NCBI RefSeq assembly: GCF_013344475.1
Contig: NZ_JABUOU010000014.1
Coordinates: 1 to 50,431 of the forward strand
Direction of reading: 5' to 3'
Source: Martelella limonii
GTDB lineage: Bacteria; Pseudomonadota; Alphaproteobacteria; Rhizobiales; Rhizobiaceae
Length of the DNA stretch: 50,431 nt
The position numbers and the translations under genes are program-made. The notes beneath the pieces are model-generated. The model worked only from the letters and a program-made list of their open reading frames with translations. It ran no database searches and was not told the origin of the DNA. Positions 9,689 through 12,784 of the stretch are shown here, piece by piece (within the stretch, counting starts at the first letter, position 1; the number at the start of each line of letters is the position of its first letter).

Positions 9689-10281
9689 GCAACGATCACC
9701 TCTTGGACATCGACACCTACGAACTGCAAACCCTGATCACCGGGATAGCGTTCAAGCTGGCCGCTGTAGTTCCAAAGCCCGCCCCATTCGAAATTGATCG
9801 CGGAGAACTCGCTTTCGATATTGATGTTGACTATCCTGAAGCGCTGTCCGTCGGCATTCCCCCAGTGTCTGGAAGGGGCAGAGAGCTTCCCCCTGAAAAG
9901 CAGCTTTAGGCCGGAGGGCCATATCGTCTCTGTTTCGGGGTCAAAGCAGGCCCAATAGATCGTTGCCGACTGTCCTTCGATATTCGCTGCCTGCTCTTTG
10001 ATCGAGGCAAGGAATTCAGAGGTGAAGCCGGATAGAATGATTTCCATCTTGGCCGTCTCTCCGAACCTGGAATCGACAACGTCACCGACGCTGATCAACT
10101 GATGCTTGTCAGGGTTGCCAACACCTTCCCAAGTGACGCCATCAATGACCTTTCGCCCTGAAGCGGTGTGCACCCGCCAAATACTGTCATCCGGCATCGT
10201 GATCTCTGCAAACCACGCGCGGAAAATCGACATCGATGAGCCGAGGAACTGCTTTTCGGCTTCTGTGAATTCTGTGCTCAT
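9685..10281 (-). CDS. Tail-tip assembly protein (DUF2163-like)
   Basis: A 198-aa protein. The order tape measure - 281-aa tail protein - this gene - NlpC/P60-like - J-like matches the tail-tip block of lambda-like phages and gene transfer agents, where this slot holds a DUF2163-type protein. Visible segments include WFAEITMPDDSIWRVHTASG and GETAKMEIILSGF. The start at 10281 is chosen for GAGG upstream. A strong terminator (10294-10320) lies right before it, so its transcription must come by read-through or antitermination. Confidence 0.72.
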   Translation of the reverse strand: MSTEFTEAEKQFLGSSMSIFRAWFAEITMPDDSIWRVHTASGRKVIDGVTWEGVGNPDKHQLISVGDVVDSRFGETAKMEIILSGFTSEFLASIKEQAANIEGQSATIYWACFDPETETIWPSGLKLLFRGKLSAPSRHWGNADGQRFRIVNINIESEFSAINFEWGGLWNYSGQLERYPGDQGLQFVGVDVQEVIVA

Positions 10282-10293
10282 GATGACCTCAAT

Positions 10294-10320
10294 AAAAAAG
10301 GCCCGCCGAAGCGAGCCTTT
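10294..10320 (-). terminator. Rho-independent terminator with UUCG loop
   Basis: On the minus strand, AAAGGC-T-CGC-TTCG-GCG-G-GCCTTTTTT forms a 9-bp stem with a stable UUCG tetraloop and a six-T tail. It ends the accessory transcript (10594-12051 plus the pentamer array) just before the tail gene at 10281. Confidence 0.88.
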
Positions 10321-10377
10321 CTGTTTAGTTTGATATGCCACACTATGGCGTTGGTTGACTTGGCGCTACACAATGAA

Positions 10378-10546
10378 CCTTGCCTGCCGTGCCCAACCAT
10401 GCACCGACCCGGCCAGCCTCTCCTAACCTTGCCTGCCGACCATGCCAGACCTCGACCTGCCACACCGGACCTTGCCTCGCCTGCCAGAACCCGCCTTAGC
10501 ACGCCCCGCCTAGCCTAACCAATTCGCGCCTTACCTGCCTTAATCC
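10378..10546 (-). repeat. Phased pentanucleotide array (GG about every 5 nt)
   Basis: On the minus strand a GG dinucleotide recurs with a mean spacing near 5 nt for about 170 bp. The plus strand shows CC at 10378, 383, 387, 392, 397, 404, 409, 413, 417, 422, 427, 432, 436, 440, 445, 450, 456, 460, 465, 470, 475, 480 and so on to 545. The bases between GGs vary, so it is a phased motif (roughly GGYNN), not a simple tandem repeat. It lies between the stop of the 164-aa gene and the terminator, so it is transcribed in the G-rich sense. I see no credible coding use. Confidence 0.8.
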
Positions 10547-10595
10547 ATTCCGGGCGCGGGGTTGATAGGAGAACTCCCGCCGTAACTCCATGGGC

Positions 10596-11090
10596 TCAAT
10601 TGAACTTCTTTTTCGTGGCGTCTATCACGTCGATCAGGTCGGAGAATTCCGAAAGATCGGCGTATCGCCTGCGCCAAGCCTGCAACTCTCGCCATGCCTG
10701 TTGCAGAACCATATCCCGGGTCTTCGTCATCGACATGGCGTGACTGGTTTCCCGATAGTGCGGGATGCCGGCTTCCGCGACATGGACATACGCTCTCTGC
10801 CTGACCGCCGGGCGGTCATCACTGACATAGACGGCTACCACAGATCGGATCAGACCGCGCGCCTGCTTGAGCCTGTATTGATGCGCCGCCGCGCTGTCAT
10901 CCCACTCGAAGAACGAATGCAGCGGCGAATTGTCATGCTTGGCATCGTCAAGAATGTCTTCAGGGGTCAGCTCGCCCTTGAAGCGCTGCCGGAGCATTTC
11001 TAGATGCTCACCGACTTCCTTCGCATTTTTCGACGCTCCGGCCTGAAAGCGAGCCCCTTCGGCAAATTCAAATCCAGCGATCCGCATCAC
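10596..11090 (-). CDS. Hypothetical partner protein of the accessory pair
   Basis: A 164-aa, mostly helical and charged protein (ASKNAKEVGEHLEMLRQRFK; SPLHSFFEWDDSAAAHQYRL). I know this type only as a conserved uncharacterised phage protein usually next to a gene like 11087-11749. Its start overlaps the end of that gene (ATGA), so the two are co-translated. The N-terminal third has EVGEHLEMLRQRFKGELTPE, helix-rich and possibly nucleic-acid binding. There is no tail or head signature despite its place in the tail module. The pentamer array follows its stop directly. Confidence 0.72.
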   Translation of the reverse strand: MMRIAGFEFAEGARFQAGASKNAKEVGEHLEMLRQRFKGELTPEDILDDAKHDNSPLHSFFEWDDSAAAHQYRLKQARGLIRSVVAVYVSDDRPAVRQRAYVHVAEAGIPHYRETSHAMSMTKTRDMVLQQAWRELQAWRRRYADLSEFSDLIDVIDATKKKFN

Positions 11091-11749
11091 GCAGCCTCCA
11101 GATTTTCAATCTCATCCTCGGTCGCAACATGGAACATGCCGTACATGCCGTCCTTTTCGGGCCTCCATTCCCCGACGCCGACCGCGAAGCCCGCCACATT
11201 CAGAATGTTCAGTATCTGCCCTTCGCTCAGGACGTTGCCGTTGTAGCGAACCAGAAGCCGGGCATGCCAGTCCGGAAACTCGCCGCGATACCGAATGTCT
11301 GCGGTGCCCATCCCGATCCGAACCGTGTCCTCGCGCATTGAGGGCTCGCAGCCCTCGATTTTCACGAGATTGTGCCGGCCCTTCGTACCTTCGAACACAC
11401 CCTGGACGTCAACATCTTCGCCGAGGATATGGAAGGCCTGCCGGGCGGCGATTTTCGTGATCCCGGCAACAGACGTGCACGCAGTGACCGCCGCGCTCTT
11501 GAAGCCGACAGACGGAAAGCCGAAGCCGTCCTTGAGGCGATACAGCGAGCTTTCGAAGTCAGCCTTGGGGTCTTTCGCTTCCTTCGCGCCCTTGGCTTTC
11601 TTCATCTGCTTGTCGAGCATTTCCCGCTTGGCCTTTTCAGACCACGCATGAACGATCAGAGGGCTATCGCCGATGACGGCTACCTCCATCATGCGAATGT
11701 CAAGCTTGGGAAGTTCTATACCGATATTCTCTTTCTTTGCTACAGCCAT
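11087..11749 (-). CDS. Conserved phage protein, possible RAMP/Cas7-like fold
   Basis: A 220-aa protein. It opens with a strand-rich segment (LDIRMMEVAVIGDSPLIVHA), then a Lys-rich loop (EKAKREMLDKQMKKAKGAKE). Next come DGFGFPSVGFKSAAV, GTADIRYRGEFPDWHARLLV and a glycine-rich C-terminal loop (VGVGEWRPEKDGMYGMF). The 'hPsvgFKsAa' element and the late glycine loop recall RAMP-type RNA-binding folds such as Cas7, but this is only a visual resemblance. The start at 11749 has GGAG 6 nt upstream. It is co-translated with the 164-aa gene and preceded by a hairpin leader. Confidence 0.72.
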   Translation of the reverse strand: MAVAKKENIGIELPKLDIRMMEVAVIGDSPLIVHAWSEKAKREMLDKQMKKAKGAKEAKDPKADFESSLYRLKDGFGFPSVGFKSAAVTACTSVAGITKIAARQAFHILGEDVDVQGVFEGTKGRHNLVKIEGCEPSMREDTVRIGMGTADIRYRGEFPDWHARLLVRYNGNVLSEGQILNILNVAGFAVGVGEWRPEKDGMYGMFHVATEDEIENLEAA

Positions 11750-11784
11750 TTCAGTCTCCATAAGCGCCCGGCCCGCCAAGCCCG

Positions 11785-11846
11785 GTAACGCACAGGGGTT
11801 CGCTTTCACGAACACCGGGGCTTATGAAGCTCAGTGTTCGCGTTAC
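11785..11846 (-). promoter_or_regulatory. Structured leader upstream of the accessory pair
   Basis: GTAACGC (11785-11791) pairs with GCGTTAC (11840-11846), and CGAACAC (11809-11815) pairs with GTGTTCG (11834-11840). The same CGAAC (11809-11813) can instead pair with GTTCG (11798-11802), so two mutually exclusive hairpins exist. It lies 35 nt before the start codon of the 220-aa gene, on its transcript, and could work as an attenuator or riboregulator. The arms resemble the immunity operator (GTAACG...CGTTAC), but the spacing is far larger. Confidence 0.5.
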
Positions 11847-11877
11847 ATCCTCATTGGCGGCGAGGAATTTCAGAATT

Positions 11878-12051
11878 TCATGATGCGTAAAATTCGTTGA
11901 CTAGCCGATCGAACTCCGGACCCTCGATGCCAGCCAGAGCGGCGTCAAGAATGCGGTTGAATGCCGATTGCTGCGGCTTTGTCATCTGAGCGACGAGAGC
12001 GAGAATTCTTGCGGCTGCACTGCCGCCTGTGGTATTTCCACGATCAGCCAT
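11878..12051 (-). CDS. Small protein leading the accessory unit (57 aa)
   Basis: Starts MADRGNTTGGSAAARILALV, with GGAG 6 nt before the ATG at 12051. It is helical (QQSAFNRILDAALAGIEGPE), without membrane segments or known motif. It is the first gene after the promoter at 12123-12151 and is separated from the 220-aa gene by a 128-nt structured spacer. Function unknown. Confidence 0.6.
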   Translation of the reverse strand: MADRGNTTGGSAAARILALVAQMTKPQQSAFNRILDAALAGIEGPEFDRLVNEFYAS

Positions 12052-12122
12052 ATCAATCTCCAACAAGATTGGTTTCGGTTAGGGCCGGTGCGGAAGGTGG
12101 TGCTTCCCATCGGCCTGATTTT

Positions 12123-12151
12123 CATATATAGGTTATTCTACTGCCCGTCAA
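12123..12151 (-). promoter_or_regulatory. Promoter of the accessory unit
   Basis: On the minus strand, TTGACG (12146-12151), 17-bp spacer, TATATG (12123-12128). This is one of the best promoter matches in the window. It points at the 57-aa gene (5' UTR about 65 nt). The -10 lies inside one copy of the CATATATAGG repeat, so a regulator bound there would block it. Confidence 0.7.
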
Positions 12152-12164
12152 TAACATATATAGG
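12123..12164. promoter_or_regulatory. Paired direct repeats CATATATAGG, likely RHH operator
   Basis: Identical 10-mers at 12123-12132 and 12155-12164, 32 bp apart (about three helical turns), in the divergent intergenic region between the 57-aa gene and the RHH gene at 12174. Copy 1 covers the -10 of the leftward promoter; copy 2 ends 9 bp before the RHH start. RHH proteins commonly bind tandem repeats in their own promoters, so autoregulation plus control of the accessory unit is likely. Confidence 0.65.
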
Positions 12165-12173
12165 AAATTATTT

Positions 12174-12353
12174 ATGCCACCTCGCGGACGTCCTTCTGCA
12201 TTTCCGATAAAAAAGTTGATCGCTATTGATCAGACGATACTTGATGCCGTCGAGGCATACCGCTCAGAGGTTCAACCGCCGATCAATCAATCGGAAGCCT
12301 TCCGAACCATCCTCCGCGACTGGCTCATCGGCAACGGATACCTCAAGGGCTGA
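12174..12353 (+). CDS. Ribbon-helix-helix DNA-binding protein
   Basis: A 59-aa protein. A basic arm (MPPRGRPSAFPIKK) precedes the strand LIAID, then helix A (TILDAVEAYRSEV) and helix B (NQSEAFRTILRDWLIG). This is the CopG/Arc-type RHH fold, which binds DNA as a dimer through the paired strand. Paired repeats just upstream are its likely operator. It is divergent from the accessory unit, in line with the lipoprotein gene, and lies opposite to the late genes. No toxin gene follows, so it is probably a plain repressor. Confidence 0.82.
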   Translation: MPPRGRPSAFPIKKLIAIDQTILDAVEAYRSEVQPPINQSEAFRTILRDWLIGNGYLKG

Positions 12354-12412
12354 CTTGACTTAATTTCCCAGCCGCGTAACCATCGCTACGGGATGGCCTT
12401 TCGGAGAAACCA

Positions 12413-12784
12413 ATGAAGCGATTTATCATTATGGCGGCATGTCTAGCGCCGCTCGCTAGCTGCGGAACCGTGGCTGAAAACGCTGACGTTGGTGTTGGCT
12501 TCTCAATGGGGCAACGAGCGATCGAGCCTGTTGAAGAAGTCCAGATCGTAGAAACTGGCCCGCGCCAAACGGACCCTAAGCAGCGAGTCGAGGGGTATAG
12601 CTGCAAGAACAAGCTTTGGGACCCACGCGCAAGCAAAGACAACGCCGTCAATCTGATGAAGAAACAGGCGAAGGATCGCGGTTACAACACCGTTCATTCT
12701 GTGACTGTCGCGAACGATCCGATGGCTCCTATCAAAAACTGCTGGGAGGGAATCATGGCCAGAGGCATTGCCTTCAGCCAGTGA
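12413..12784 (+). CDS. Lipoprotein, probable lysogenic-conversion gene
   Basis: A 123-aa protein with a lipoprotein signal (MKRFIIMAACLAPLASC, lipobox LASC). A mature region of about 106 residues ends with NAVNLMKKQAKDRGYNTVHS and CWEGIMARGIAFSQ, like small DUF4156-type lipoproteins. It has GGAG before the ATG. It lies on the plus strand inside the tail operon, co-oriented with the RHH gene, and its last codons overlap the tail gene ending at 12774. A surface lipoprotein expressed from a prophage is often a superinfection-exclusion factor; here that is inference. Confidence 0.75.
   Translation: MKRFIIMAACLAPLASCGTVAENADVGVGFSMGQRAIEPVEEVQIVETGPRQTDPKQRVEGYSCKNKLWDPRASKDNAVNLMKKQAKDRGYNTVHSVTVANDPMAPIKNCWEGIMARGIAFSQ

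Follow-up and report, generated by a model that had tools for sequence, protein, structure and literature searches.

The window, by which we mean the whole stretch of 50,431 nucleotides of Martelella limonii DNA analysed here, carries tail, terminase and integrase genes, which makes the unit described below phage- or prophage-encoded. This unit lies on the minus strand and, as the preliminary description of the DNA had noted, splits tail genes, with the phrog_1302 distal tail gene upstream and the phrog_2048 tail protein gene downstream. Read 5' to 3', it comprises a 57-aa ORF at the operon start (11878..12051), a gene for a 220-aa protein (11087..11749, phrog_4652), an accessory gene in the vap position (10596..11087, 163 aa from the ATG, phrog_15946), a 5' leader (10536..10591), a G-rich array (10378-10546) and a terminator-like hairpin with a TTCG loop and a T run (10322-10295). 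Both the overlap of the two larger genes, in which the accessory start runs into the preceding stop (TGATG), and the UUCG-loop hairpin are present as first described; the hairpin folds at -17.4 kcal/mol and is likely the end of the operon RNA, though the consensus scan listed no terminator, this hairpin included. Hairpin-like stretches 3' of the array are also visible in several relatives.

Both phrog_4652 and phrog_15946 are PHROGs of unknown function, and Pfam gave no usable match for either protein. The RAMP/Cas7-like look earlier ascribed to the 220-aa protein was borne out by its AlphaFold2 model (pLDDT 87), which has a RAMP/Cas7 fold with the glycine-rich loop GFAVGVGEWRPEKDG and for which Foldseek returned Csm3, Cmr and Cas7-type chains, with 50 at E ≤ 0.001 and a best E of 1.4e-5. 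The family profile, searched against the PDB, matched the chain 36pp, named 'SUSP1 Vipr protein' (E = 2.5e-10), and hhalign of the window family with the SUSP1 gene, picked as the CDS adjoining the GGY/NN tracts, gave E = 9.2e-12. On these two matches, membership of the protein in the Vipr family, and with it the identification of the unit as a VIPR system, is firm. A 2026 preprint describes VIPR as made up of a RAMP protein together with an accessory gene and with vrRNAs of GGY/NN repeats, in which the vrRNAs read double-stranded DNA with one base skipped per unit and co-purify with SUSP1 Vipr (PMC13142463). The suggestion of a new RNA-protein system has therefore been overtaken by publication, and the kind of system is not new.

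The accessory protein offers less to compare. Its model is of good quality (pLDDT 90), but no PDB fold matched it at E ≤ 0.001, the weak winged-helix-like names that were listed being no evidence, and the best hit of a sequence search against the PDB had E = 0.57. Similarity was found neither to the SUSP1 neighbour gene, taken as Vap1, nor to the neighbour gene in the Pseudomonas phage LESphi2. A conserved partner gene nevertheless adjoins vipr in 74 of the 83 related loci collected. PADLOC returned no match for the three proteins scanned (Vipr, the accessory protein and a divergent 59-aa protein).

On the minus strand of 10378-10546, 18 GG pairs are found at lag 5; 2000 dinucleotide shuffles gave 8.0 ± 2.3 and never reached 18. 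In the rest of the window, on both strands, the best 170-nt stretch holds at most 7 such pairs vs 19 for the array, and a unit parser run over the whole window on both strands found arrays of at least eight units at this place alone. The recurrence of GG every 5 nt first described is thus real; it was called strict, however, and in fact GGYNN units are broken by four-nucleotide GGCA units, here named commas, while the second G is replaced by another letter, mostly T, in about one fifth of units over all arrays. A dynamic-programming parse gives the order leader, comma, S1 (10 units), comma, S2 (8 units and one running into the comma), comma, S3 (9 units), comma. The first comma is the end of the 5' leader, and the others lie at 10485-10482, 10437-10434 and 10388-10385, the last belonging to the array end (10375..10388), where the closing GGCA is followed by GGCAA GGTTC. 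Segment S1 (10486..10535) has the NN letters AA GC TT TA TA GG GT AA GG CT, S2 (10438..10481) GA AA CC GT AG GA CT AT with (CG) as the ninth unit, and S3 (10389..10433) AA TA GA TG GG GG AT TG AC. Published vrRNAs are defined by 9-16 YNNGG units with GGY conserved and NN variable (PMC13142463), and the window segments count 10, 9 and 9 units, S2 having 8 if the unit running into the comma is left out.

The same grammar holds for the relatives. In 3910 units from 92 distinct arrays, the window included, the first position is G in 94.8%, the second G in 79.7% (T in 15.4%) and the third C or T in 93% (0.594 and 0.340), followed by two mixed positions. Of the four-nucleotide units in these arrays, 294/348 are GGCA, and 162 of 268 intervals between successive ones measure 8-11 units, the commonest being 9 (53 intervals). 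GTY stands for GGY in about 14% of units overall, a share that rises to 44% in locus L056, 70% in L057 and 33% in L042; a count of lag-5 GG pairs misses L056 and L057 (score 2) because so many of their units are GTY. In L029-L034 (around 5066-5225 of L029), all 28 five-nucleotide units are GGY, many of them GGCAA or GGCAT, and this array looks freshly expanded or low in information. The LESphi2 array (L083, 4525-5000) has another form, with three short, separate GGYNN tracts upstream of vipr and, by eye, hairpin-like stretches between them, unlike the window array.

Several physical readings of the phase were weighed. DNA helical phasing was dropped as its cause, since a slip of 4 nt does not correct a 10.5-bp phase, and TRAP-like scaffold and G-quadruplex readings were likewise considered and dropped. 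TRAP, the tryptophan attenuation protein, binds phased triplets separated by spacers of 2-3 nt and has a fold that differs from that of a RAMP protein; in the window array, the spacers are best read as carrying the information.

Related genes were found in 34 phage records for vipr and 33 for the accessory gene, mainly from Mycobacterium and Gordonia phages with a cyanophage in addition and, for vipr only, a Pseudomonas phage, and at 59 (vipr) and 19 (accessory gene) IMG/VR loci. The 83 loci contain three contigs twice (L004/L066, L010/L067 and L012/L074) and sets that are alike, such as L024-L025 and L029-L034. For the vipr alignment (A2), the window was joined by 37 of the 59 loci, 21 being left out by choice, some as near-duplicates, and L052 being removed on account of a stop codon in its stretch; the accessory alignment (A1) holds the window and 18 of the 19 loci, without L072. 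An array of at least eight units lies on the coding strand at 79/83 loci, compared with 3/83 for the reverse-strand control, whose longest array has 10 units. The expectation that homologous pairs would carry a phased array beside them was thus upheld, the nearest array being no more than 250 nt from the matched genes at all 79 array loci and no more than 100 nt at 74. The four loci without an array (L004, L009, L027 and L066, of which L004 and L066 are one contig) are on contigs that end 6-64 nt past the partner match. Relative to the nearest gene, the nearest array is downstream in 68 of the 79 loci and upstream in 11, and in five named phages it stands downstream, upstream or between the genes, so that its position is free and its strand is not. 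One could suppose that the array acts as DNA, the phased GG duplex being a binding or packaging site or a former of G-quadruplexes or R-loops with the genes as passengers, and the G-richness of one strand would suit this; the constancy of the strand set against the variable position, together with a leader that covaries as RNA structure and a protein of a family of RAMPs that bind RNA guides, makes such a role for the DNA barely credible.

The leader (10536..10591) is predicted to form two hairpins and a pseudoknot that joins its 5' end to the loop of the first hairpin. An alignment of 10 copies (A5; the window and eight relatives, one of them with two copies) has 93.2% of cells paired, with 7 of 12 pairs doubly changed; 0/500 shuffles matched either the pairing or the double-change value, and slid controls reached at most 58.7% paired. 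A second type of leader, a single hairpin in 12 relatives (A4), has 66/66 cells paired, a percentage reached by 1/500 shuffles, and is the weaker case because its 2 doubly changed pairs were equalled in 88/500. The copies of both alignments were chosen by eye from the flanks of the window, L002-L014 and L061-L079, a sample in which not every locus is represented. Rfam yielded nothing at the gathering threshold for the window locus, with one sub-threshold STnc100 match (23 bits vs 47). Across 16 relatives it matched nothing but tRNAs, five in number and confined to L047; this locus is on a 463-kb viral contig and its five tRNA genes are near its VIPR arrays.

The start of the operon is less clear than it had appeared. 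What had been taken for a good promoter is visible on the minus strand as TTGACG-17-TATATG (12151-12123), read directly from the sequence, but it is weak by consensus and the consensus promoter scan did not list it, so that promoter-like is the better word. The 57-aa gene does stand at the operon start as an ORF, though it has homologues in 0/83 loci and belongs to no PHROG or Pfam family. On the plus strand, a divergent gene (12174..12353) encodes a 59-aa protein, ribbon-helix-helix-like by eye, for which Pfam and PADLOC gave no match; since 13/83 loci have a homologue upstream of vipr that is encoded on the other strand, it may be the regulator of the VIPR operon. The similar direct repeats CATATATAGGTTATT and CATATATAGGAAATT lie around the promoter-like site, within 12123-12169, beside this divergent gene.

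The bases between the GGY triplets had been regarded as merely free. To read them against DNA, 314 segments were decoded from the window and its relatives and 1.5 million letters were scanned on both strands, comprising the fetched loci, the window and L094-L096, with arrays masked. At E < 0.001, NN pairs read with one target base skipped per unit gave 5 matches; skips of 0, 2 and 3 gave 0, shuffled NN order 0, 0, 0, 0 and 1, and reversed order 0. At E < 0.05 the excess is modest (23 for skip 1 vs 3-16 in nine controls). L094-L096 entered the scanned set owing to earlier matches, so the rows of the window guides are not independent; the five best rows do not involve them. These five link L011 to the major tail protein gene of L063 (18/18, phrog_158), L005 to the tape-measure gene of L072 (16/16, phrog_19914), L011 to the inside of the partner (accessory) gene of L065 (20/22), L055 to the inside of vipr in L052 (22/26) and L068 to the leader of another VIPR array in L062 (20/22). 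Four of the five fall within genes, and in 4/4 of these the skip coincides with the wobble base, codon position 3, of the gene, with overlapping open frames at those sites set aside by judgement. No convincing continuation of a match across a GGCA comma was seen in 7 cases tried, 2 of which were without neighbouring units, and guides are therefore read as separate. The exposed bases are best read as information-carrying guide letters rather than mere spacers, and the window array and its relatives appear, on computational evidence, to obey a one-base-skip target code. If the RAMP protein instead coated a phased RNA with a structural or regulatory role, as a scaffold or sponge with free NN and no DNA target, phase and GGY conservation would look identical; yet under skip 1 the NN letters find more DNA matches than the controls do, with the skip at wobble positions, the matches fall in phage tail genes and other VIPR loci, and two guides of one array fall in one element, which leaves such a role very unlikely.

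That element lies in the same genome as the window. S1 matches G000:C1:616011 on the plus strand at 18/20, its only match in the host genome, with no second place at ≤2 mismatches in 247 family genomes; the backward-pattern control had 2 matches in the same genomes. S2 matches G000:C1:614063, also on the plus strand, at 15/16 with 8 NN or at 17/18 with the ninth unit, which was read only after the target had been seen and with which the backward control also finds one place at ≤2 mismatches. Both guides are thus imperfect, with 2 and 1 mismatches, and across the family the 8-NN S2 is at background (19 places vs 18 for its backward control, by our count), so that the weight rests on the coincidence of the two sites within 1.95 kb of one element. 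By our own estimate, about 2e-4 matches of S2 quality would be expected within 5 kb of the S1 site. The S2 target is in a gene of 131 aa, and the beginning of a DnaD-like replication gene overlaps with it; here too the skip falls on the wobble base. Searches of 13 genus genomes and of phage records turned up no other copy of this 131-aa gene. The S1 target is past a phrog_2134/DUF6950 gene (function unknown), outside any recognised gene. Exact scans of IMG/VR with S1 (first 9 NN), S2 (9 NN) and S3 found none. S3 has no place at ≤1 mismatch in the 247 family genomes and no credible target: two places in its own genome at 3 mismatches are about chance level by our estimate, and two exact matches in unrelated bacteria are no more than chance would give.

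The matched element (L095/L096, about 610.5-628 kb of G000:C1) has genes for integrase, portal, capsid, terminase, major tail and tape-measure proteins and a tRNA-Ser at its integrase end; L094 was scanned for guides and for tRNAs. Past the tape measure, the ORFs of at least 150 aa are one of 222 aa without a family, an HNH gene and then host-like genes, of which one was checked (DPBB_1) and the others were judged by eye; inspection by eye picked out no distal tail or fibre gene among these ORFs. For the capsid and the large terminase, the element and the window phage have different PHROGs, while the tape-measure C-terminus (68% over 63 aa) and the DUF6950 gene (55% over 130 aa; in the tail operon of the window phage) are common to both. 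By its gene content the element looks satellite-like or defective, and S1 and S2, which nearly match it, would be aimed at a rival that shares their genome and is phage-like or a satellite. It resembles in this the SUSP1 case, in which targets converge on a satellite sharing structural genes (PMC13142463). The element could also be an ordinary degenerate prophage, the guides being directed at related free phages and the resident copy being incidental; the mismatches of the guides and the integrase, portal, capsid, terminase, major tail and tape-measure genes fit this, while the lack of a recognised distal tail gene after the tape measure and the tape-measure C-terminus and DUF6950 gene shared with the window phage count against it without being decisive, and we rate it at somewhat less than an even chance.

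The present system is similar to SUSP1 VIPR in its homologous RAMP protein, neighbouring accessory gene, GGY/NN repeats and phage origin, in its one-base-skip code with a wobble bias and in targets within competing mobile elements. In SUSP1, an Escherichia phage of type II, each guide carries a structured 3' tail according to the preprint (PMC13142463), and the guides (L099) are separate tracts; in the window they run head to tail through GGCA commas behind one 5' pseudoknot leader, the structure thus being 5' of the array rather than 3' of each guide, and the clade of the window is therefore organised differently. Another difference is the accessory protein, which has no similarity to the SUSP1 neighbour gene. 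The preprint refers to 'staggered arrays with overlapping vrRNAs' and illustrates them in its supplement; these may be the comma-delimited arrays seen here or something else. In its main text no GGCA commas were found between guides, nor a covarying 5' pseudoknot leader, nor this accessory protein (PMC13142463); a literature search on VIPR terms led to no other paper. With class 1 CRISPR-Cas (Csm3/Cmr/Cas7) the system shares the RAMP fold, the glycine-rich loop and the expected alignment of subunits along a guide RNA, although its repeats are 5 nt long, its guide information is gapped and the neighbours examined are tail genes. CRISPR-type repeats were found neither in 9800-12600 nor among the tandem repeats of the window.

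Altogether, we hold with a probability of about 0.9 that the locus is a VIPR system belonging to an integrase-carrying phage, in which Vipr and its vrRNA guides would silence DNA through one-base-skip reading. One transcript would include vipr, the accessory gene, the 5' pseudoknot leader and three guide segments, or vrRNAs, of 9-10 GGYNN units each with GGCA commas between them. Vipr subunits would line the RNA, one per five-base unit, holding GGY, an arrangement modelled on RAMP complexes; the phased grip of the array RNA by a RAMP protein, as first proposed, is supported by homology to SUSP1 Vipr. The exposed NN pairs would then read double-stranded DNA as NNxNNx, with one target base skipped per unit, and the DNA-bound filament would block transcription, two of the three guides being directed at the co-resident phage-like or satellite rival. 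Protein family membership, array anatomy, the covarying leader and the target matches were observed here; expression, RNA binding, DNA binding and silencing we infer from the homologous SUSP1 system.

We give about even odds to a more specific proposal, that this is a distinct VIPR architecture with one operon RNA, a covarying 5' pseudoknot leader, head-to-tail guides that have no tails of their own and whose GGCA commas are possibly a processing or filament-phasing signal, and an accessory protein of a different kind. By it helper phages would act against a tail-borrowing satellite present in the same cell and, among the relatives, would strike at rival VIPR loci in their vipr gene, accessory gene and leader. 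The analysis adds a distant clade that keeps to the one-base-skip code, arrays divided by commas, a leader that covaries and a pair of targets within the same genome. VIPR was described only recently; it recognises DNA through RNA guides with a gapped code, in a form that possibly predates CRISPR, and its one-base-skip reading is now backed by computation in a clade distant from SUSP1. The comma-delimited guide array becomes visible, guides matching rival VIPR loci are exposed, and a single genome supplies a target pair that is plausibly native, made up of a phage and of a satellite-like element with which it shares tail parts.
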